Shown piece by piece: positions 3,269 through 29,733 of a stretch of 39,372 nt of DNA (the first letter of the stretch is position 1; each line of letters opens with the position of its first letter). Where the stretch lies: assembly GCA_019237945.1 (NCBI GenBank), contig JAFAOG010000299.1, positions 1-39,372 of the forward strand, given 5' to 3'. A program made the position numbers and the translations under genes. The stretch comes from Deltaproteobacteria bacterium (GTDB taxonomy: Bacteria > Myxococcota_A > Polyangia > Haliangiales > Haliangiaceae). The notes under the pieces are model-generated. The model did not search any database and was not told the DNA's origin. It saw only the letters and a list, made by a program, of their open reading frames with translations.

Positions 3269-4132
3269 TTACGCGCGGGCGCCAGGGACCGCGTACACGC
3301 TGATCGGCCCGCCGCCGCGCTTCCAGCCCTCGCGTAACAGCCACGTCTGCGGATACGCGGTCAGCATCGGTTCGTACGTCTCGCGCGTCTTCCACGCGAA
3401 CGGCGACTCGCCGCGCTCCTCCCAGCCGCCGAACGCCCACCCCGACGAGAACGGATCGATCAGCCAACCCGTCGCGAAGTCGCGCCGATCCTCGCGGTGC
3501 TTGCGCCAGTTGTTGAGCACGTAGCAGAGCGTGTTGCGCGCCTGCCGCGGCGTCGTGACGATCTCCTGGTGGTACCGGTCGGGGAACACGGTCCCCTTGC
3601 GGCGGCCTGCGACCCACGCGCGCGTCTTCGCGTTCCACCAGCGCTGTCTCGCTCCGCGCTCGCGGCCGTTGCGCGCATTCCACCAGCTGGCGTCTTTGGA
3701 GCGACCCGCCGAGATCGCGACATTGATGTGCTTCGCGGCACTGATCTGAAACGCCTGCATGCCGCGCGCGAGTGCCATCCGGTCATCCGCCTCGACAAGC
3801 AGGTGCAGGTGGTTGTGCTGGATGCTGAGGTGGACGATCCGACAGCTCGGACGCTCGGCCATCGCGATCGTCGCCCACCGAACGGCGCGGAACACGTCGC
3901 GCGTGCGCATGCGCTCGAGCTCGTCCGTGATGCGGATCGTCACGTGCGCGGCCTGGTTCGGACCAAGCGGCGGGCGAACCTTGTGCGGCTCGCTCGAACG
4001 CTTTCCCTTCGGCGGCCGCCCCAGCTTGACGCCCCGTCGCCGCTTGCGCCGGTTCGGGTCGCCGCGGCGCTGGCCATTCTTGTCGCCATAGAACAGCGAC
4101 TGCTGAACGTGACGCTTGCGGCCGCGACCCAT
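3269..4132 (-). CDS. REP-associated tyrosine transposase (Y1, HUH; RAYT type)
   Basis: The protein has 287 residues. A very basic N-terminus (about 1-60) precedes the Y1_Tnp-like core. HLSIQHNHLHLLVE carries the HUH metal-binding pair (H108, H110), and LCYVLNNWRKH near residue 204 supplies the candidate catalytic Tyr. FPDRYHQEIVTT matches the family strand before that helix. Such enzymes cut single-stranded DNA at REP-type hairpins and are usually single-copy domesticated genes. It ends about 50 bp beyond the last recognisable residues of the damaged glyoxalase gene. Its upstream side is an AT-rich stretch followed by the 16-bp tandem array at 4288-4431. ATG 4132 was chosen as the first Met. 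Confidence 0.8.
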   Translation of the reverse strand: MGRGRKRHVQQSLFYGDKNGQRRGDPNRRKRRRGVKLGRPPKGKRSSEPHKVRPPLGPNQAAHVTIRITDELERMRTRDVFRAVRWATIAMAERPSCRIVHLSIQHNHLHLLVEADDRMALARGMQAFQISAAKHINVAISAGRSKDASWWNARNGRERGARQRWWNAKTRAWVAGRRKGTVFPDRYHQEIVTTPRQARNTLCYVLNNWRKHREDRRDFATGWLIDPFSSGWAFGGWEERGESPFAWKTRETYEPMLTAYPQTWLLREGWKRGGGPISVYAVPGARA

Positions 4133-6732: not shown

Positions 6733-7461
6733 TCAGTGGCCGGTGATCGGGATGTTCACCGTGCCGAGGTTGGTGACCTCGTTCTGCGGATTGATGACCT
6801 TGTTGGTCAGCGTCGGGGCCGTGCCGACCGCGCCCGCCGACGTGAACGCGTCGATCGAGACGGTGTACGTGCCGGCCGGGATGCCCGCCGTGATGTCCTC
6901 GTGGTCAGAGCAGTTGAACTGGTCGTTCGTCGCGGCCGTCGAGCCGGAGAGCGTCGCGTTGATCTCGACGCCCGACGAGGCGCCCGTGACGCCTGCCGAC
7001 GCGCAGTCGAGCGGCTGACCACTGGTCGCGCCGACGAGGTTCCAGGCGAACTGGAAGTAGCCGCCGTCGTCGTAGATGTCCGTGTTGTAGGTCAGGTCGA
7101 CGTCCGTGACATCGAGGATCGCCGGAACGCTCTTGGCGTAGACGCTCGAGTTCGAGTGGGTCGTGATCTCGACCCAGGTCATGTACGCCGTCGGCGGCAG
7201 GGCCGCGCTGGTGCCGGCGCCCGCGACGCAGTCGAACAGGTCGATGATCGGCGAGCCGACCGGGTTGTTCGCCGAGTCGATCGGCTGGTTGTAGAGCGCG
7301 GCGGTGTCAAAGCCCGAAGGGCAGCCGGTCACTTGGTTGGAGACGACGCTCTTGATCTGCCAGGTGGCGCCGACATGGGCATTATTCGAGCTGCTGCTCG
7401 AGATGATGCAGCCGGTGGACGCGGCGGCGATCAAACCGGATAGGACAACAAGGTTCTTCAT
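6733..7461 (-). CDS. Secreted lipoprotein of unknown function
   Basis: The protein has 242 residues. ATG 7461 is preceded by GGGAG seven bases upstream. The signal peptide ends in a lipobox (AASTGC, Cys about residue 17) and is followed by a Ser-rich linker. The mature part is beta-rich, with several Cys that could pair (CPSGF, LFDCVAG, LDCASAG, FNCSDHED) and repeated segments such as GIPAGTYTVSIDAF. This last type of segment (lead PAGTYTV) is common in immunoglobulin-like or carbohydrate-binding beta domains. No catalytic motif is seen. The next gene upstream on the same strand is another lipoprotein with a similar PPGTALLSV segment, suggesting a diverged duplicate pair. Confidence 0.7.
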   Translation of the reverse strand: MKNLVVLSGLIAAASTGCIISSSSSNNAHVGATWQIKSVVSNQVTGCPSGFDTAALYNQPIDSANNPVGSPIIDLFDCVAGAGTSAALPPTAYMTWVEITTHSNSSVYAKSVPAILDVTDVDLTYNTDIYDDGGYFQFAWNLVGATSGQPLDCASAGVTGASSGVEINATLSGSTAATNDQFNCSDHEDITAGIPAGTYTVSIDAFTSAGAVGTAPTLTNKVINPQNEVTNLGTVNIPITGH

Positions 7462-10021: not shown

Positions 10022-11268
10022 CGATCCTGCTCGCGGCGGGGGTTGCGAGCGCGCAGCCCGCCGACGGCGTCGTCGTCGACGTCAACGGCCAGAAGAAGGG
10101 CCTGTACCCGATCGCGACGCCGACGTCTCCCGATTCCGACTCGGCCGCCGAGATCGCAAAGATCGAGTCGTTCGATCTGTCGGTCGCGGGTGTGTTCAAG
10201 GTGCTCGACCCCGCGTCGTTCCTCGCCGACCTGCGCGCCGAGGGCATGGGTCTCGATCCGCAGAAGTGGAAGGACGTCGGCGCGTACGGCGTGATCAAGT
10301 ACAAGGCGACGAAGGACGACATCGAGTTCCGGCTCTACGAGATGAGCAAGGGCGCCGGTCCGACGCTGACGAAGATCTACAAGCGCGCGGGCAAGGACAC
10401 GCGGACGCTCGTCCACATGTGGTGCAACGAGGTCGTCAAGTACTACACGAACGAGCCGGGCTTCTTCGGCTCGAAGATCGCGTTCACGGCGAAGGGCAAG
10501 GGCACGAGCTCGATCGTGGCGATGGACTTCGACGGCGCGAACGCCTACCAGGTCTCGCACAACGGCTCGACGAACATCCTGCCCGCGTGGTCGCCGACCG
10601 GCGGCCAGATCGCCTACACGAGCTTCATGCGCAGCAACCCGGATCTCTACGTCGCGCCGGCCGGCGGCGGCCGCCCGAAGAAGATCAGCGGCCAGCGCGG
10701 CATGAACACCGGCGCGTCGTGGTCGCCCGATGGGCGCCAGATCGCGGTGACGCTGTCGAAGGACGGCAACCCGGAGATCTACGTCATCAACGCGAGTGAC
10801 GGCTCGGTCGTTCGCCGCATCACGAACGACAAGGCGATCGATACGTCGCCGGCGTGGTCGCCGGATGGCAGCCAGATCGCGTTCGTCTCGGATCGCAACG
10901 GCGGTCCGCAGATCTTCGTCGTCAGCGCGAGCGGCGGCGCGGCGCGCCAGGTGTCGTTCAACGGCAGCTACAACACGACGCCGACGTGGTCGCCCAAGGC
11001 CGGCAAGCACATCATCGCGTACACGACGCGCGACGGCGGGACGTACGACATCGTCACGCTCGACATCGACAGCAAGGAAATGAAGCGGATCACCCAGAAC
11101 GCGGGCAGCAACGAGGAGCCGGCGTTCTCACCGAACGGCCGCGCGATCGCGTTTGCGCGTGCGGGTCAGGGCATCTTCATCGCGAACGCGGATGGCACCG
11201 GCCAGGCCGTGAAGGTCTGGAGCGGGTCGGCGACCGGGGTCGACTGGGGACCGGCACCCAAAGAATGA
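9985..11268 (+). CDS. tolB: Tol-Pal system beta-propeller protein TolB
   Basis: The protein has 427 residues with signal peptide [18 protein letters not shown]. The N-terminal TolB domain (about 25-165) is followed by PD40/WD-like blades with repeated [42 protein letters not shown] and [10 protein letters not shown], each the TolB-repeat signature. TolB is periplasmic and links the inner Tol motor to outer-membrane lipoproteins. ATG 9985 was chosen, with ATG 9991 as a near alternative. The start overlaps the tolA-like gene, and the stop shares ATGA (11265-11268) with the next gene. No pal gene follows, which is unusual for a tol cluster. Confidence 0.92.
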
Positions 11269-12275
11269 AGCGCCTACTCTTTTTGCTCGCGGTTGCGGCG
11301 TGCGGCACCGATGCGCCACCGCTGACGCACGACACGACGCTCGACTGTCCCTCGCCGGATGGTCTGCCGTTCCGCGTGACGAGCGGTTTCCGCCACGCGC
11401 AGAACGCGAACCTCGCGAAGATGGACACGCGCATCAAGCACGAGGCGGCCGACACGATCGGCAACCCGAGTGGCGCGGTCGCGAACACGCACCTCGCCGA
11501 CACGGGGATGCCGAGCACGACGGTCGAGATCGACGGCACGATGGGCGTCACGACGACGACCGGCGGCCTGTTCTCGATGCCGATGACCGACGAATACGTC
11601 AGCGCGTGGACGTACGACGGCAGCGCGTGGCAGCAGCTCGGCCGCGGGCTGACCGACCAGGACGGCCTGTTCTCGCTGCCGGGCGCGCTCGTGCCGAACG
11701 GCCAGCCGATCTTCACGGTGCTCGAGGCGAACGGCACCTGCGCGCGCGCGTACGACGAGACGCTGCCGATGGGCGCGAAGGTCGTCGTCACCGATATCGA
11801 CGGCACCCTGACGACCAGCGACAACGAGCTCGCGATGGAGATCGCGGACCCGACCCACGACCCGGCGATGATGGGCCACGCCGACGCGATGCTGCAGGCG
11901 TGGGCGATGAAGGGCTATCCGATCGTCTACCTGACGAACCGCCCGCACCCGCTGCGCGTCGAGACGCGTGGCTGGCTGGCCGAGAAGATGATGCCGACGG
12001 GCCCCGTGATCACGTCGAACGGCACCGCGAGCGATGCCGCCGCCTACAAGACCGTGTGGCTCGAGCGCATGGTCATGACGTTTGGCTGGAACATCGTCGC
12101 CGCGTACGGCAACGCATCGACCGACATCACCGCGTATCAGAACGCGGGTATCCCGAAGACGCAGACGTTCATCGTCGGTCCGCTGGCCGGCTCGGGCGGC
12201 ACGCAGCCGATCGACAACATGGACTTCCAGGCCCACATCACGTCGTACGTCGATCAGCAACCGCAGAACAACTAG
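11265..12275 (+). CDS. Lipin-like (LNS2) HAD phosphatase lipoprotein
   Basis: The protein has 336 residues. [13 protein letters not shown] gives a lipobox with Cys13. A beta-rich N-terminal half (about 30-165) is followed by [16 protein letters not shown], the D-x-D-G-T motif of the lipin/Ned1 LNS2 HAD domain. [19 protein letters not shown] and [10 protein letters not shown] are the next LNS2 signatures, and [16 protein letters not shown] the magnesium-binding end. By family it would be a phosphatidate-type phosphatase, here anchored in the envelope. It starts within the tolB stop codon (ATGA), so it is translationally coupled to the Tol complex. This suggests a role in envelope lipid balance (inference). 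It overlaps the convergent cydB by CTAG. Confidence 0.8.
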
Positions 12276-16802: not shown

Positions 16803-17201
16803 CTACTCGTCGCTCGGCGACAGATCGCTCCATAGGAAATAGCGCTCCTCCGCCTGCAGGTGCACGCGCAGGTGGTCGAGCGCATCGCGCAGCACGGCGA
16901 CCGGTCCGTCGCCCAGATGCTCGCGCACGGCGCGGTGCTCGCCCACGTGCTCGGCGACGATGCGGCTGATGTGGATCTCGCCGTACGCGTCGACCTCGCG
17001 CAACAGCGGGCGCAGCAGGTATTCCTCGAACGCGTTGTGCGCGTCGAACGCGACCCGCAGCTTCGCCACCTCGCGCGTCAACGCGGCTGGATCGCCCCGA
17101 CCCGCGTCGAGCTCGTCGGCGAGCCTCTCGCACGCGTTGATCATCGCGCGCAGCGCCTCGTGCTGGTTTGCGAGCTCCGCGGTCAAGCCGGCGATCGACA
17201 T
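16803..17201 (-). CDS. Hemerythrin HHE-domain protein
   Basis: This 132-residue four-helix protein carries the diiron ligand set: [11 protein letters not shown] (first His), [12 protein letters not shown] (HxxxE), [12 protein letters not shown] (HxxxH) and [12 protein letters not shown] (HxxxxE region). Such proteins bind oxygen or nitric oxide or buffer iron in the cytoplasm. ATG 17201 was chosen because GGCGAGG lies just upstream; ATG 17216 is possible. It is divergent from the NtrC/protoglobin-kinase operon, and gas or redox sensing could be the common theme (inference). Confidence 0.85.
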
Positions 17202-17322
17202 ACGCCTCGCCTGCATCAATCGGCATGCCCGAAGTTCCGGCCGAAACCGCGCAAACCCTGCATCGCGCCGCGCGGGACGTGCAGCGCCTGCGTCGGATCA
17301 TGGCCAAACCCCTGTTTTTGCG

Positions 17323-17338
17323 TGGCACGACTCTGGCT
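17323..17338 (+). promoter_or_regulatory. Sigma-54 type -24/-12 promoter
   Basis: TGGCACG (17323-17329), four bases, then TGGCT (17334-17338). The GG and GC doublets are 12 bp apart, as required, and only one base differs from the TTGC form of the -12 element. A transcript would start near 17349, two bases before the ATG at 17351. Confidence 0.6.
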
Positions 17339-17350
17339 ATATGGGCCGTC

Positions 17351-18759
<1,409 letters not shown>

Positions 18760-18763
<4 letters not shown>

Positions 18764-19860
18764 CGTTACTCGACGAGGTTCTGGGCTACATCGAGCTGGA
18801 TGCGGCTGAGCAGCAGCTGCTGCGCGAGCTCCATCCGCGGCTCGCGCCCTACTTCGGAGAGATCACGCAGAAGTTCTATGACGCCGCGCTGAAGAGCCCG
18901 GGCGCGACGTCGGTGCTCATCGAGTGGATGGCAAGCGGGCTGCTCGGGCCATACGACCAGACGTTCTACGACAAGCGTTCGCGCAGCGGGCTGCCGCAGC
19001 ACACCATGTTCACGGCGATGAACGTCGTGCGCACCGCGTACATCGACAAGATCAACGAGCTGTATCCGCACGCGGAGGCGCGTGAGGTCGTCCGCGCGGT
19101 CAACAAGCTGCTCGATGCCGAGCTCGCGATCATGCTGCGCTTCTACCAGCAGGACTCCGAGGACAAGCTGATCGCGCGCGAGCGCCGCGTCCAGGCGGAA
19201 AAGCTCGCCGCGATGCAGACGCTATCGTCGGGACTCGCGCATGAAGTGCGCAACCCGCTCAACGCCGCCGCGCTGCAGCTCGAGCTGCTCGAGCGCCGGC
19301 TGCGCCGCGTGATCGATGACGCCAAGCTGCTCGAGCCGATCCAGCTGGCGAACCACGAGCTGCAGCGGTTGACGGCGTTGCTCAACGACTTCTTGACGTT
19401 CGCGCGGCCGCCGGAGCTGCACGCGAGCGATCAGGATGTCGTCGACATCGTGCGCCACGTGATCGAGCTCGAGAAGCCACTCGCCGAGCGCCGCCACGTC
19501 GCGCTCGCGATGCAGGACCACGCGCCGATCCTCGCGAAGGTCGACTCCGGCAAGCTGCACCAGATCGTCCAGAACCTCGTGCGCAACGGGCTCGAAGCGA
19601 CGGCGGAGGGCGGTCACGTCGAGGTCGTGGTGACGAACGGCGTGCCGAATGCGTTCCACATCGTCGTCAAGGACGATGGCCCCGGGATCCCGGAGGACGT
19701 GCTGCCGCGGATCTACGAGCCGTTCTTCTCGACGAAGGAGAGCGGCACCGGCCTCGGCATGGCGATCGTGCACTCGCTCGTCGCGATGCACGGCGGCAAG
19801 ATCCTGATCGACACGTCGCCGCGCGGCACGACGCTCGATATCGAGCTACCGCGCGAGTAG
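18760..19860 (+). CDS. Globin-coupled sensor histidine kinase with shortened protoglobin domain
   Basis: The protein has 366 residues and no membrane segment. Residues 5-130 match the protoglobin/globin-coupled sensor ([58 protein letters not shown]). Compared with the family as I remember it, about 8 residues holding the proximal heme His (IGRxHVxIG) are missing between R75 and S76, and roughly 12-16 are missing near residue 51. The kinase core has H161 ([11 protein letters not shown]), an N box ([12 protein letters not shown]), [20 protein letters not shown] and a final strand. It should phosphorylate the coupled NtrC-type regulator. Its tail overlaps the convergent prs by 15 bp. Confidence 0.85.
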
Positions 19861-24436: not shown

Positions 24437-25993
24437 TCAGCCCTTGGAGAAATCGCCGGTGTCGAAGGTGTCGAGCCACATCCGCTCGAACTTGTACGAC
24501 GTGAACGTCGTGTCCTGATACGCGGCGACCAGCTTCGGCTTGAGATCGCCGTACCACAGCTGCTTCCACGCAGCCTGATACAGCTTGTCCGCGATTGCCG
24601 GCTTCGCCTTCGCGATGTCGGGAAATGCGCCTTCCGGAATGCCTGCCTGTTGCGCGACGATCGTGCGAATCTGCGCGGCGACCGCGGAGGTGTCGGCGTT
24701 CATGTCGCCGCCGCCCGGAAGCCCCCAGCTGTAGTGCACGCCGGTCATCGCTTCGCGCGTCGCGAGCTTGCAGCGGGCGCGCATGCCTTCGATGCGCTGC
24801 TGGACCTCGTCGAACTCGTGGCCGGCCTTTGCCCAGCCGACGAGCATCACGATTCCGGTGCCGAGCGGTGCGGCGATCGCGAACGCCGCGGTATCAGCAG
24901 CAGCGGCGACGGCCTCGGCGAGGTACTTCGCCATCTCGACCCAGTTCGGCTCGATGTCACACGCGAACGTCAGCTCCGGCGTCACCTGATAGCCCATATA
25001 CGTGCCCGGCACGTCGGCGCTCAACTTCGCGCTCGGTGTGACGCACAAGAACTTCGGCGTCTTGCCAACCTCCCATTCGACGATCTTGCCTTCGATCGAG
25101 AACGGACCGGCGTGTAGGTTCTGAAAGCTGAAACCGGGATGCGAGACGCTGACGCCGAAGCCGAACGTCACGCCGTTCTTGTCGGCCTTGATGTCGCCCG
25201 ACAGCTTCGGCTTGATGGTCCAGTTCTCCGGACCGACTTCTTTCTCGGCGGACAGCTTCACGCTGTCCTTGGTCGCGCTGACGTTCGTCGAGATGCCGCC
25301 CGGGCCGGCGGTCTCCGGCGCGCTCACGTTCTTGTTCTTGAGCTTCACGCTGCCCGACAGCGATGGCGTCAGCTTGATGGGACCGAGCGATACCTCCTTC
25401 TTGACCTCGCCCACGTCGACGCTCGCGTCTCCCGACATCACGTCGACCTCCGCGTCGCCCGTTTTGCGGTGCAGTCCGATCGGTGCGTCCGCGACGGACG
25501 CTTGCTTTCCCGCGACCATCGCATCCGCCGCGCGATCGGCTTCGACCTCGTGCGAGTCCGTCGGCTGCGACACCGCGAGGCTCTTCAGCTGCAGCCGCTT
25601 GATGCCGCCTTGCTGCTGCACGGTGTGCGCGACCTCGTGCGCGAGCAGGTGCTCGCCTTCGGGCGTCGACGGCATGTACTGACCGGTGCCGAAGTGGATG
25701 TTGCGCCCATGCGCGTAGGCTTTCGCGCCGACGGCGGCGGCCGCCGTTTGTGATTCGGCGCTGCGATGGATGCGCACGTCGGAGAGGTCGGCGCCGAGCG
25801 ACGCTTCGAACTTGTGCTGCAGATCGGCGGGCAGCGGCTCGCCGCTCGACGACGCCGCGGCTTCGACCGCGGGCGCAGCGTGGTCGTAAGCGCCACTCGC
25901 CTCGACCAGCGTCTGCTTGCCGGGCGTCGGTCCGCCCGCCTCCGCACCCGTTCCCGTGGCCCGGCGATCGATCCGCTGATCGAAGTAGCGCAT
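24437..25993 (-). CDS. DUF4157 (eCIS-core-type) protein with metalloprotease-like motif
   Basis: The protein has 518 residues and no signal peptide. DUF4157 occupies about 54-128, with PLPADLQHKFEASLGADLSDVRIH, YAHGRNIHFG and the zinc-type motif HEVAH (119-123, in LLAHEVAHTVQQ). A long beta-strand-rich central part follows (about 170-340, Lys/Ser/Val alternation such as KLTPSLSGSVKLKNKN), then a hydrophobic Ala-rich helix (about 365-400) and a helical C-terminus. DUF4157 is frequent in contractile-injection-system cargo and exported toxins; no such system is in this window. The promoter region holds the palindrome shared with the two-component genes directly upstream. Confidence 0.85.
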   Translation of the reverse strand: MRYFDQRIDRRATGTGAEAGGPTPGKQTLVEASGAYDHAAPAVEAAASSSGEPLPADLQHKFEASLGADLSDVRIHRSAESQTAAAAVGAKAYAHGRNIHFGTGQYMPSTPEGEHLLAHEVAHTVQQQGGIKRLQLKSLAVSQPTDSHEVEADRAADAMVAGKQASVADAPIGLHRKTGDAEVDVMSGDASVDVGEVKKEVSLGPIKLTPSLSGSVKLKNKNVSAPETAGPGGISTNVSATKDSVKLSAEKEVGPENWTIKPKLSGDIKADKNGVTFGFGVSVSHPGFSFQNLHAGPFSIEGKIVEWEVGKTPKFLCVTPSAKLSADVPGTYMGYQVTPELTFACDIEPNWVEMAKYLAEAVAAAADTAAFAIAAPLGTGIVMLVGWAKAGHEFDEVQQRIEGMRARCKLATREAMTGVHYSWGLPGGGDMNADTSAVAAQIRTIVAQQAGIPEGAFPDIAKAKPAIADKLYQAAWKQLWYGDLKPKLVAAYQDTTFTSYKFERMWLDTFDTGDFSKG

Positions 25994-26028
25994 GCCGAAA
26001 CGGTAGGTCTCGGCGCGCCGCCGCGGCA

Positions 26029-26044
26029 GCGCATGAACATGCGC
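26029..26044. promoter_or_regulatory. Palindromic operator copy 1 (upstream of the DUF4157 gene)
   Basis: GCGCATGAACATGCGC: two perfect 7-bp arms around AA. Its core starts 38 bp upstream of ATG 25993, in the 51-bp gap after the response-regulator stop. TACCGT, a -10-like hexamer, follows 25 bp after the core on the coding strand. It is identical to copy 3. Confidence 0.75.
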
Positions 26045-26674
26045 CTAGCGCAGGATGCCGTGCTTGAGCGCCTTGGCGACCGCCTCGGACTTCGTGTGGA
26101 CGTGCAGCTTGTCGTAGATCGAGCGGACGTGGTTGCGCACGGTGTTGATCGAGATGTCGAGCTTGTGCGCGGCGTTGAGGTACGAGTGACCGTCCGCGAG
26201 GAGCGCGAGCAACTCGATCTCCTTGGGCGTGAGGCCGTGGTCGGTGGGCGGCGGGCGGAGCTGGCGAAAGACGGTGAGGACGTTGCGCGCGACCTCGGGA
26301 GACATCGGGGCGCCTCCGGCGGCCGCCGAGCGGATCGCGTCGAGGATGCGCGGTGGTGGGGTCGACTTGAGGAGGTAGCCGCACGCGCCGTTGCAGATCG
26401 ACTCGAAGACGCGGTCCTGGTCCTCGGTGACCGAGAGCATCAGGATGCAGGCGCGCGGGTGCTTTTTTGCGAGCGCGGCGGCGCCGGCGGAGCCGAGCGT
26501 GCCCGGCATGTGGATGTCGAGGAGGATGACGTCGGGCGCGGGCCCCGGCGCGGCGAGCGCGGCCGCGATCGAGCTGACCTGGCGCGTGCACCGGAGGTCG
26601 GGCTCGGAGGCGATCAGGGCGGCGAGACCGTTGCGGAGCACGGCGTCGTCGTCGACAAGCATCACCTCGATCAC
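26045..26674 (-). CDS. LuxR/NarL-type response regulator
   Basis: The protein has 209 residues. The receiver has acidic residues D8-D10, phospho-acceptor D53 (VILLDIHMPG) and the switch Lys in LLKST. The C-terminal GerE/LuxR helix-turn-helix is LTPKEIELLALLADGHSYLNAAHKLDISINTVRNHVRSIYDKL. It is transcribed after the large sensor kinase and before the DUF4157 gene. All three have the same palindrome at the same distance upstream, so it is the natural candidate to bind it. The start is GTG 26674. Confidence 0.92.
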   Translation of the reverse strand: MIEVMLVDDDAVLRNGLAALIASEPDLRCTRQVSSIAAALAAPGPAPDVILLDIHMPGTLGSAGAAALAKKHPRACILMLSVTEDQDRVFESICNGACGYLLKSTPPPRILDAIRSAAAGGAPMSPEVARNVLTVFRQLRPPPTDHGLTPKEIELLALLADGHSYLNAAHKLDISINTVRNHVRSIYDKLHVHTKSEAVAKALKHGILR

Positions 26675-26711
26675 GTGGATGGCGTAACACGGCCCGGCGC
26701 GGCCGCGGAGA

Positions 26712-26722
26712 GCATGTTCATG
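26712..26722. promoter_or_regulatory. Palindromic operator copy 2 (upstream of the response-regulator gene)
   Basis: The core GCATGTTCATG matches copies 1 and 3 read on the other strand; the outer arm bases are not conserved. It starts 38 bp upstream of GTG 26674 and abuts the kinase stop codon. TTACGC, a -10-like element, follows about 24 bp downstream. Confidence 0.65.
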
Positions 26723-29602
26723 TCATAGGCGGAGCGTGATCTCGGTGCCGGAATCGTGGCGGATGTCGAGCGTGCCGCCGGCGGCCGTCGCGCGGGCGCG
26801 CATGTTGGTGAGGCCGTTGCCGGTGCCGGGCAGCGCAGCGGGGTCGAAGCCGCGGCCGTCGTCGCGGACCGTCGCCGTGATCGCGGCGCCGTCGGCGTGG
26901 AGCGTGATCGCGACGTGGGTGGCGTGGGAGTGGCGGGCGGCGTTGTGAATCGCTTCCTTGAGGATCAGGTAGAGGTGGCGGCGGCGTTCGGGGTCGAGCG
27001 GGATCCGTGTCGGGTCGGCGGGCGCGTCGAGCGTCCAGGTGATGTTGCGGGACTCTAGGACGTCGGCGGCGAACGTGCGGAGGCGGACGATCAGCGAGCC
27101 GAGATCGTCGCGGCGCGGGTCGGTCGCCCACACGATGTCGGAAGCGACGGTGACCAGCTCGCGCGCGGAGCTGCCGATGACATCGATCTGCGGGTGGACG
27201 TCCTCGTGCGCGGCGGCGCGGCGCGATGCGAGCTCGGAGAGGATCGAGATGCGGGAGAGCGAGGAGCCGATCTCGTCGTGGAGGTCGGAGGCGATGCGCG
27301 AGCGAACGCGCTCGACGGCGAGCAGGTGCGCGAGGCGCCAGCGGTAGAGCGCGTAGGTCGCGGCGATCAGCAACAGTGCCGCGAGCGCGAGGAACCACGC
27401 GCGCAGATAGAGCGGCGGCAGGATCTCGAAGTCGACGTGGGCCGAGACGGCGACGATCACCGACGACAGCAGCGCGCGCACCTCGAAGCGGTAGTTGCCG
27501 GGGGCGAGGTTCGCGAGGTGGATCGTGTGCTCGTTCTGCGGCGCGCTCCACGGCTGGTGGCCGAGTCGGTACTCGTAGCGAAGCGGTGCGCCGATCGCGA
27601 ACGACGGGGTCGTGAACGTGATGTCGAGCTGGTTGTTCGTCGGGCCGAGCGAGAGGGCGGGGGCGACCATCTCGCCGCCGAATGCGAGCGGGGTCGGTTG
27701 GCCGGAGACCGCGACGCGCGTGATGTAGGTCGGCGGCGCGACCATCGGCGGCTCGCGGAACGGAACGAGCCGAACGGCTCCCGCTTTGGTGCCGAACCAC
27801 AGTGCGTTGTCGTGGGCGCGGAAGCCGACGACGATCGATTCGTTCGACAGGCCGTCGGCGCGGCCGAAGTGCGCGAGGTCGCCGGTCGCGGGATCGAGGC
27901 GATCGATGCCGCGCGTGGTGCCGATGTAGATGCGTCCGTCGGCGTCGTCGACGAGCGACTGCACCTGCTCCGACCACAGGCCTTGCGCGACACCCCAGCG
28001 GCGGCGCGGCTCGACGAGCACCACGCCCGCGCGTTCGGTGCCGGCCCACACGCGATCGTGCGCATCGACGAGGACGGCTGCGAACGAGTCGTCGCCGAGA
28101 ATGCGCGACGGCGTGTCGTGATCGACGCGGAACAGACCCTGCGTGCTCGCGATCCACACGGCGCCGTGGTGATCCTCCGCGAACTGACCGATCGCGCCGA
28201 CGGAGGGCAACGTGATGACGCGATTCGTGGCGCGGTCCCAGCGCGCAAGACCGGCGGGACTCAGCGTCGACAGCCAGATGTCGCCGCGCGAGTCCTCGAA
28301 GATGCGCAGCACGTCGCGACCGGGGAGGCCATCGCTCTGGCGGAGCATATCGACGGGACCGCCGGGCGCGAACCGCGCGATGCCTTCGCCGGTCGCCATC
28401 CACCACCGGCCGTCGCGATCGATCAGCGCGGGCTGCACCCACGCCCAGCCCTGATTGGCGACCGGCAGCGCGGGCCGCGTCGACGAGAACATATGACCGT
28501 CGAAGCGCGCGAGCGCGTGGCCTTCGCGCCGAAACGTGATCGCGTAGAGCGTGCCGTCGTGCGCCTCGGCGAAGCCATGGATGTTATCGGAGTCGAGGCC
28601 GTCGGGTTCGCGATAGGCGACGAGGCCGCCGGGCGCGAGACGTACGATGCCGTCGCTGTCAGAACCGAACCACACGTTGCCCGCGCCGTCTTCGAGGCAC
28701 GGAGCGAGCGCGCCGTGCACGCCGAGACGTGGCTCGTGTAGCTCCTCGAAGCGCGTGCCGTCGTATCGCACGACGCCCATCGTTGCGCCGATCCACACCG
28801 TATCGCGCGAGTCGACGAGAATGCCGCGTCGGGCCCAGCCTGTCGGCTCGAAGCGCAGCCAGTCGGCATGGGCGGGCGCGGCGTCCCACAGCGGGCCGGC
28901 GGGCAGCGGCGCGTCGAGCGGAATCGCGAGGATGATCGAGCCCACCCAGCCGATCCACAGGCGATGGTGATGATCGATCGCGAGCGAGAACACGCGATCG
29001 TCGTTCGGGGCCTCGGCGATCGGATGGATCGGATGCTGCGTGATCGTGCCGTCGGCGCGGCGGTGCACGAGCCCGGCCCACGTGCCGAGCCACAGCGAAT
29101 GATCGGCGGGGTCGTAGGCGAGCGACAACACGGCAGGTTCGTGCCCGGGCCGCACCGGAACGATCGTCGTGCCGCTGCGCGTGACCGTGACGAGGCCCGC
29201 ATCGGTCGCCGCGTAGATCGTGTGATCGACCTCGAGCATGCGATTGACGCCGGCGCCGGGCAGCGGATGAAACCGGGGTGCCACGCCGCGCTCCATTGGA
29301 TCGAGCCACGCGATCCCGCGATCCGTCGCGACCCAGATCGTGCCATCGGCCGCGGCGAGCACGTGCGCGGCGACGGACGATGGCAGCCCGTCGACGACGC
29401 CGAAGTTGACGAACTCGTGGCCGTCGAACCGACTGACGCCGTCGACCGTCGCGAACCACAGATAGCCTCGCGCGTCCGCGGCGCCGCCATCGACGCGATC
29501 GTTGGCGAGACCGTCGGCGGTCGTGTACGTGTGCGTCGCAAGACGCTCGGCGTGAGCGGTCGCGGCGGCGACAACCCACAAACACACGAGCGCCCGGCGC
29601 AC
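26723..29602 (-). CDS. Large sensor histidine kinase: reg_prop beta-propeller, Y_Y_Y and HisKA_3
   Basis: The protein has 959 residues. Signal peptide RRALVCLWVVAAATAHA is followed by two periplasmic seven-bladed-type propellers built of reg_prop repeats (TADGLANDRV, DGTIWVATDRGI, DSRGDIWLSTL, DGRIYIGTTRGIDRL and others). A Y_Y_Y domain lies at about 665-735 (FRFEVRALL end), then one TM segment (WFLALAALLLIAATYALYRW). The cytoplasmic kinase has a HisKA_3 box (SDLHDEIGSSLSRISIL) and an ATPase domain (KEAIHNAARHS, DDGRGFD, GNGLTNMRARA). This type senses extracellular ligands, often polysaccharide breakdown products. The LuxR-type regulator follows 48 bp downstream. The start is GTG 29602. Confidence 0.92.
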   Translation of the reverse strand: MRRALVCLWVVAAATAHAERLATHTYTTADGLANDRVDGGAADARGYLWFATVDGVSRFDGHEFVNFGVVDGLPSSVAAHVLAAADGTIWVATDRGIAWLDPMERGVAPRFHPLPGAGVNRMLEVDHTIYAATDAGLVTVTRSGTTIVPVRPGHEPAVLSLAYDPADHSLWLGTWAGLVHRRADGTITQHPIHPIAEAPNDDRVFSLAIDHHHRLWIGWVGSIILAIPLDAPLPAGPLWDAAPAHADWLRFEPTGWARRGILVDSRDTVWIGATMGVVRYDGTRFEELHEPRLGVHGALAPCLEDGAGNVWFGSDSDGIVRLAPGGLVAYREPDGLDSDNIHGFAEAHDGTLYAITFRREGHALARFDGHMFSSTRPALPVANQGWAWVQPALIDRDGRWWMATGEGIARFAPGGPVDMLRQSDGLPGRDVLRIFEDSRGDIWLSTLSPAGLARWDRATNRVITLPSVGAIGQFAEDHHGAVWIASTQGLFRVDHDTPSRILGDDSFAAVLVDAHDRVWAGTERAGVVLVEPRRRWGVAQGLWSEQVQSLVDDADGRIYIGTTRGIDRLDPATGDLAHFGRADGLSNESIVVGFRAHDNALWFGTKAGAVRLVPFREPPMVAPPTYITRVAVSGQPTPLAFGGEMVAPALSLGPTNNQLDITFTTPSFAIGAPLRYEYRLGHQPWSAPQNEHTIHLANLAPGNYRFEVRALLSSVIVAVSAHVDFEILPPLYLRAWFLALAALLLIAATYALYRWRLAHLLAVERVRSRIASDLHDEIGSSLSRISILSELASRRAAAHEDVHPQIDVIGSSARELVTVASDIVWATDPRRDDLGSLIVRLRTFAADVLESRNITWTLDAPADPTRIPLDPERRRHLYLILKEAIHNAARHSHATHVAITLHADGAAITATVRDDGRGFDPAALPGTGNGLTNMRARATAAGGTLDIRHDSGTEITLRL

Positions 29603-29639
29603 GCGCGCGATCGTACACGCCCGCCGCCCCTGCGTAACC

Positions 29640-29655
29640 GCGCATGAACATGCGC
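29640..29655. promoter_or_regulatory. Palindromic operator copy 3 (upstream of the sensor kinase gene)
   Basis: GCGCATGAACATGCGC, identical to copy 1 over all 16 bases. Its core starts 40 bp upstream of GTG 29602. TACGAT, a -10-like hexamer, follows 26 bp after the core on the coding strand. It lies in the 131-bp gap between the kinase and clpP, so it could also affect clpP. Confidence 0.75.
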
Positions 29656-29733
29656 TCCCGGGCCTGCCCTCCCCGATGAGCTAGTGGCCAGGCGCGTTGC
29701 ATGGCCTCCGCCAGCCTCGTAGAGTCAAAGGGC

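Follow-up and report, generated by a model that had tools for sequence, protein, structure and literature searches.

A conserved palindrome as the likely operator of a probably self-controlled kinase, response regulator and eCIS_core locus in a relative of the myxobacteria

A palindrome recurs at three consecutive genes

Within a stretch of 39,372 nt of deltaproteobacterial DNA (the window), three consecutive genes on the minus strand, encoding a sensor histidine kinase, a response regulator (RR) and an eCIS_core protein, are each preceded by a copy of one palindrome. Taken as a whole, the observations are best explained if this palindrome is the dimer operator of the RR and if the RR activates its own locus together with the eCIS_core operon, a reading which we regard as likely. 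The genes of the locus are:

26723..29602, minus strand: Reg_prop sensor histidine kinase, 959 aa, GTG start (Pfam; orthologs 48% identical in genome G014, 50% in G003)
26045..26674, minus strand: NarL/LuxR-type RR, the proposed binder, 209 aa (Pfam; orthologs 76-77% identical)
24437..25993, minus strand: eCIS_core (DUF4157) protein, 518 aa, with HEVAH motif (Pfam; orthologs 50% identical in G014, 44% in G003)

The initial annotation had named these genes as DUF4157 protein, LuxR-type regulator and reg_prop kinase, and the Pfam search bore this out. Above curated cut-offs, the kinase matched Reg_prop, HisKA_3 and HATPase_c and the RR matched Response_reg and GerE, so that the domain set of a NarL/FixJ-type two-component system is present, with receiver and GerE domains in the RR and HisKA_3 and HATPase_c in the kinase. 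The third protein belongs to PF13699, in which eCIS_core and DUF4157 are the same family, and the HExxH motif ascribed to it is found as HEVAH at residues 119-123. The GTG start of the RR gene at 26674 is supported by both orthologs, which likewise begin with M-I-E-V. In the window the DUF4157 gene adjoins the GerE gene, and in the orthologous loci it belongs to the operon behind it; the kinase gene lies upstream of the GerE gene throughout. A Pfam scan of 27 window ORFs revealed no structural gene of an extracellular contractile injection system (eCIS).

The palindrome occurs at the following places:

26029..26044, minus strand: copy 1, GCGCATGAACATGCGC, directly after the RR stop codon and upstream of the eCIS_core gene; kept in both orthologous loci
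26710..26725, minus strand: copy 2, TGACATGAACATGCTC, overlapping the kinase stop codon and upstream of the RR gene; kept in both orthologous loci
29640..29655, minus strand: copy 3, GCGCATGAACATGCGC, upstream of the kinase gene; without counterpart in the two orthologous loci

The two exact 16-mers (26029-26044 and 29640-29655), the third occurrence of the 11-base core (26712-26722) and the distances of 38, 38 and 40 bp between core and start codon had been reported before, and all of them proved correct. Copies 1 and 3 show a perfect layout of two 7-bp half-sites around a 2-bp centre (7-2-7). Copy 2 is partly degenerate; its outer half-site reads TGACATG, as it does in both orthologs, and its outer bases are degenerate in all three genomes. 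When one mismatch was allowed, the window contained GCATGNNCATGC at 7 places, where 2.02 were expected; none of 100 shuffles reached this number. Four of these seven are one-mismatch sites elsewhere in the window (3901, 12067, 21098 and 36719).

Conservation in orthologous loci

A search of 55 other genomes for RR orthologs (E <= 1e-40) led to two, both of the same genus: G014 (76% identity) and G003 (77%), a Kofleriaceae MAG (JABFXX010000013.1) and a Myxococcales MAG (JAEUJX010000766.1). The same two genomes contain full-length kinase orthologs; a match to the kinase in a further genome, G015, covers the sensor part only (residues 5-414). The operon behind the RR contains an ortholog of the eCIS_core protein in both cases. 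In G003, a gene for an AAA ATPase with a winged-helix match (L021 4660-7674, minus strand) lies between the operator and the eCIS_core gene.

At the junction of kinase and RR genes, the palindrome TGACATGAACATGCGC is present in both G003 and G014. The junction between the RR and the next gene carries GCGCATGTTCATGCGC in G003 and GAGCATGTTCATGCGC in G014. Across the orthologous junctions 15-16 of the 16 palindrome positions are identical, as compared to 9-15 of the 23 spacer positions. Upstream of the kinase, no comparable palindrome was found in G003 or G014, also with filters switched off. The idea of a palindrome shared by all three promoters was therefore upheld in the orthologous loci for the promoters of the RR and of the next gene and failed for the kinase promoter in both, which indicates that conservation does not extend to feedback on the kinase.

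Copies 1 and 2 either border on or overlap the stop codon of the gene before them. The palindrome could also act at the RNA level by forming a hairpin where the preceding gene ends. Copy 1 directly follows a stop codon, and copies 1 and 3 of the window as well as copy 1 of G003 fold with a stem of 6-7 bp and a loop of 4 nt. Neither copy 2 in any of the three genomes nor copy 1 of G014 gives such a fold, yet core and spacing are kept, and copy 3 follows no gene end on its strand. Mainly because copy 2 fails to form a hairpin in all three genomes, we consider this role very unlikely.

Putative promoter geometry

Behind each copy of the palindrome, a putative -10 hexamer can be proposed on the same strand:

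26000..26005, minus strand: putative -10 hexamer TACCGT, 23 nt behind copy 1
26681..26686, minus strand: putative -10 hexamer TACGCC with TGn in front, 23 nt behind copy 2
29610..29615, minus strand: putative -10 hexamer TACGAT, 24 nt behind copy 3

The dinucleotide TA follows the end of the 16-mer after 23 nt in six of the seven sites of the three loci and after 24 nt in the seventh, window copy 3. Six of seven sites with a common offset were reached in 1 of 20,000 shuffles, a test which overstates independence because the seven sites are related by descent. Addition of two sites outside the loci (G015:C75 and G014:C624, see below) raised the count to eight of nine (0 of 20,000 shuffles); as these two were picked partly for fitting, this count is biased and six of seven is the fair one. 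Read by eye, hexamers of the form TAnnnT occur at the three junctions between RR and next gene, at window copy 3 and at C624, and TGnTA occurs at the three RR promoters, while G015:C75 fits neither form.

If TA represents positions -12/-11, the palindrome would be centred at about -43.5, which fits the range of about -41.5 to -44.5 expected for a class II activator. NarL binds 7-2-7 inverted repeats and can activate from -44.5 (PMC7419079). On the preferred reading the RR controls its own locus, probably as an activator. Were the RR to bind as a repressor, autoregulation would be negative and the promoters would stay closed as long as the regulator is bound. A position near -43, beside the -35 region, is compatible with repression and the site fronts the regulator's own gene; the -35 region, by contrast, lacks by our own reading a good consensus, and the centre lies, in comparison with NarL (PMC7419079), at the position of a class II activator. 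We regard repression as rather unlikely and activation as the preferred reading.

With the same assignment of TA, five of the seven locus sites have the start codon at +1, and the other two have it at +2 and +3. This suggests leaderless transcripts that start at the start codon or at most 2 nt from it, which would explain the constant distance between palindrome and start codon. In G003 and G014 this interval contains, at the RR gene, a Shine-Dalgarno-like GGAG, which speaks against leaderless transcripts there, unless the GGAG serves read-through transcripts.

Copy 3 sits between the kinase gene and the divergent clpP gene (start at 29701 or 29734, plus strand), and it might serve clpP instead of or besides the kinase. 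A partial model match on the plus strand (19.9 bits) agrees with such a role. Against it, the next TA on the plus strand follows at 26 nt by our own count, rather than at 23-24 nt, and no palindrome precedes the kinase in G003 or G014. A function for clpP appears unlikely.

Distribution of sites across genomes

The exact 12-mer GCATGAACATGC occurs 8 times in the source genome (G000), as compared to 2 occurrences of the reversed control, and the 13-mer GCGCATGWWCATG was matched in 15 of 16 genomes of the genus. Genome-wide, the bare core GCATGNNCATGC shows no enrichment (19 places versus 33 for the reversed control), so that the case for an operator rests on clustering, promoter position, spacing and conservation. 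This lack of enrichment is what chance repeats in GC-rich DNA would give; the recurrence at the same two junctions with fixed spacing, kept in two other genomes, makes chance an almost negligible explanation.

Random scatter over the genome, which had been named as an outcome that would speak against a regulon, was not observed: full sites (palindrome, 23 or 24 nt, TA) in the 8.1-Mb genome G000 are confined to the three window promoters, if one hit that looks coding is disregarded. A pattern search with fixed spacing in G000 returned copies 1 and 3 and this further hit, which has near-identical sequence in six other genomes; copy 2 was missed because its core lacks the leading G. A wider regulon in G000 was not found: none of the remaining six exact 12-mers is flanked on either side by a TA at a distance of 23-24 nt. 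One of them (C423) is intergenic and precedes a collagen-repeat gene, one (C34) lies within an ORF, and the other four are known from sequence alone.

We then used a sequence model (R1) built from nine sites, for which at most 150 first-look candidates were scored per genome. Among the best candidates, up to 150 each, from ten genomes of the genus, nine sites scored E < 1e-4 and nothing else fell below 0.001; the nine ranked first are included in those from which the model was built. At E <= 0.01, and again among the best candidates, up to 150 per genome, matches were obtained in 5 of 35 genomes of the order (G000, G003, G014, G015 and G031). The match G031:C79 (24 bits) looks coding by our own reading and was set aside. 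In G014, a third site (C624), far from the locus, precedes a gene with FG-GAP repeats; a candidate at an ankyrin/SMI1_KNR4 gene (C318, spacing 24 nt) reached only 13.1 bits and was not counted. In G015, site C75 (L056 6897-7156) consists of a full palindrome 23 nt ahead of TA. Further on come an inverted repeat (about 6940-6980) and a gene whose beginning resembles that of a gene for a secreted protein; the contig ends within this gene. This genome, 81% complete, has no RR ortholog at E <= 1e-40, its best relative scoring 5.7e-35.

Matches to eCIS_core number 7 in G000, 9 in G003, 15 in G014 and 43 in G015, the last in a genome of 12.2 Mb. Sheath-family hits were found in all four genomes, in G000 on contigs other than that of the window. 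On these sheath-family contigs model R1 gave no hit at E <= 0.01 among the best candidates, up to 150 per genome, which means that the sites detected concern a single eCIS_core gene in each locus and not the sheath loci. A bare 13-mer lies about 10 kb from a sheath-family hit in G015 (C733), where model R1 likewise gave no hit at E <= 0.01.

Candidate binder and recognition helix

By eye, the GerE part is nearly invariant among the three RRs and the receiver is less so. This near-identity, together with the apparent match of helix and operator types in distant homologs described below, gives indirect support to the RR as the candidate binder. We examined the DNA upstream of 118 RRs of this class, comprising L009-L011, 10 and 25 further loci, and 80 of 92 additional rows; 12 loci (11 further loci of near-related genomes and one second G314 locus) were excluded before upstream DNA was read. 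The sequence CATGNNCATG is present within 150 bp upstream of seven of the 118, whereas 60 first-order resamplings averaged 0.42 and never exceeded 2. These seven are the three orthologous loci and L240, L243, L261 and L301, whose RRs are 35-40% identical to that of the window; distant RRs with upstream CATGNNCATG palindromes cover overall an identity range of 33-40%, and L251 has a one-mismatch version. For generic palindromes with a 2-bp centre, the DNA upstream of the 118 RRs shows hardly any enrichment (6-2-6: 14 versus 11.0; 7-2-7: 7 versus 3.9, maximum 8). Among 78 further homolog loci with titles lacking a myxobacterium name, none has CATGNNCATG within 200 bp upstream.

When the RRs were grouped by the helix residues 180/184, CATGNNCATG was found for 4 of 15 with R/R, 3 of 11 with Q/K and 0 of 92 others. 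When the three orthologous loci are left out, 4 of 23 (R/R and Q/K) stand against 0 of 92 (p ~0.001), in a post hoc grouping made after the hits were seen and with small numbers. Moreover, CCCATGNNCATGGG is perfect in 3 of 11 Q/K regulators and matched at no more than 10 of 12 positions in all others (p ~0.007 with L240 and L243, which are 56% identical, counted as one). Most R/R and Q/K regulators have no site, the sites of L261 and L301 lie 81-87 bp upstream and not about 40, and one RR of the remaining group has an 11/12 match of the CGCATG type within 500 bp upstream. The outer operator bases seem to follow the recognition-helix residues, which we regard as a lead. A more far-reaching proposal is that a myxobacterial family of GerE RRs reads CATGNNCATG with outer bases set by residues 180/184 (R/R with CGCATG, Q/K with CCCATG), and that the window member has turned into a dedicated, self-reinforcing switch of a DUF4157 accessory module whose control is separate from that of the injection machine; we put this forward as a tentative possibility.

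These data also bear on the question whether an unlinked regulator binds the palindrome and the RR gene is merely one of its targets. Such a regulator would account for the full site C75 in G015, where no RR ortholog was detected, and for C624 of G014 far from the locus. It fits poorly with the strong sites at the RR locus in all three genomes that have the RR, with the lack of sites at E <= 0.01 among the candidates scored, up to 150 per genome, in the other genomes of the genus except G015, and with the apparent co-variation of helix type and operator type in distant RRs. We thus judge an unlinked regulator improbable and retain the RR as the candidate binder.

Proposed circuit and relation to known systems

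In the proposed circuit, the kinase, stimulated through its propeller sensor domain and presumably by a ligand, would phosphorylate the RR. The RR dimer would then bind the two 7-bp half-sites with their 2-bp centre just upstream of the -35 region. The target promoters would be weak, with a -10 element of the TA type, and the bound RR would recruit RNA polymerase in class II geometry, raising the levels of the RR and of the downstream eCIS_core operon and, in the window genome, also of the kinase. Kinase, RR and eCIS_core genes probably form one small self-controlled circuit; this type of circuit is already familiar, and what would be new is the site together with its target and a possible recognition code.

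Among PDB relatives, the RR matched NarL (1a04, E 3.7e-24) and, as the best, VraR (5hev, E 5e-29). As in NarX/NarL of E. coli, the RR combines receiver and GerE domains, and the site, in copies 1 and 3 a perfect pair of inverted 7-base elements with a 2-bp centre and in copy 2 one with degenerate outer bases, is located beside the -35 region, at -44.5 for NarL (PMC7419079) and probably at about -43.5 in the window. Unlike NarX/NarL, the system has the half-site GCGCATG and a propeller sensor domain, and its targets would be its own locus and an eCIS_core gene.

GerE genes adjoin 25.8% of eCIS loci, with a kinase gene upstream in 9% of those, and such pairs were proposed to regulate eCIS (Geller et al. 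2021, PMC8213781). The window resembles these loci in its GerE regulator with the kinase gene upstream and the DUF4157 gene beside it and differs in that no eCIS structural gene is among the 27 ORFs scanned. DUF4157 is described as a signature of eCIS-associated toxins and perhaps a loading aid (PMC11297309). An eCIS_core ortholog stands behind the operator in all three genomes, and the circuit might have a role together with an eCIS. Cargo loading is mediated by the loading ATPase Pvc15 (PMC11495950); the AAA ATPase of G003 matched PF00004 and PF22977 only.

No operator for a DUF4157-linked GerE system was found in the literature searched (eCIS together with two-component systems, promoters, GerE or kinase). 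The proposed control of eCIS by GerE/kinase pairs can now be tested with a defined 16-bp site, a putative promoter arrangement and three related loci, and the helix pattern is an early sign of a possible code between protein and DNA in a large group of regulators that await characterisation.

Other genes of the window

Several further genes of the window deserve mention. The ORF at 10854-12275 (plus strand) encodes an LNS2 (lipin/PITM) domain (PF24694, E 1.5e-29), which to our knowledge is unusual in bacteria. At 17168-19860 (plus strand), an RR of the sigma-54 activator type is followed by a histidine kinase with a match to Protoglobin, and this system is possibly a haem-based gas sensor. The gene at 3269-4132 (minus strand) encodes a protein with a weak match to an IS200-like Y1 transposase.
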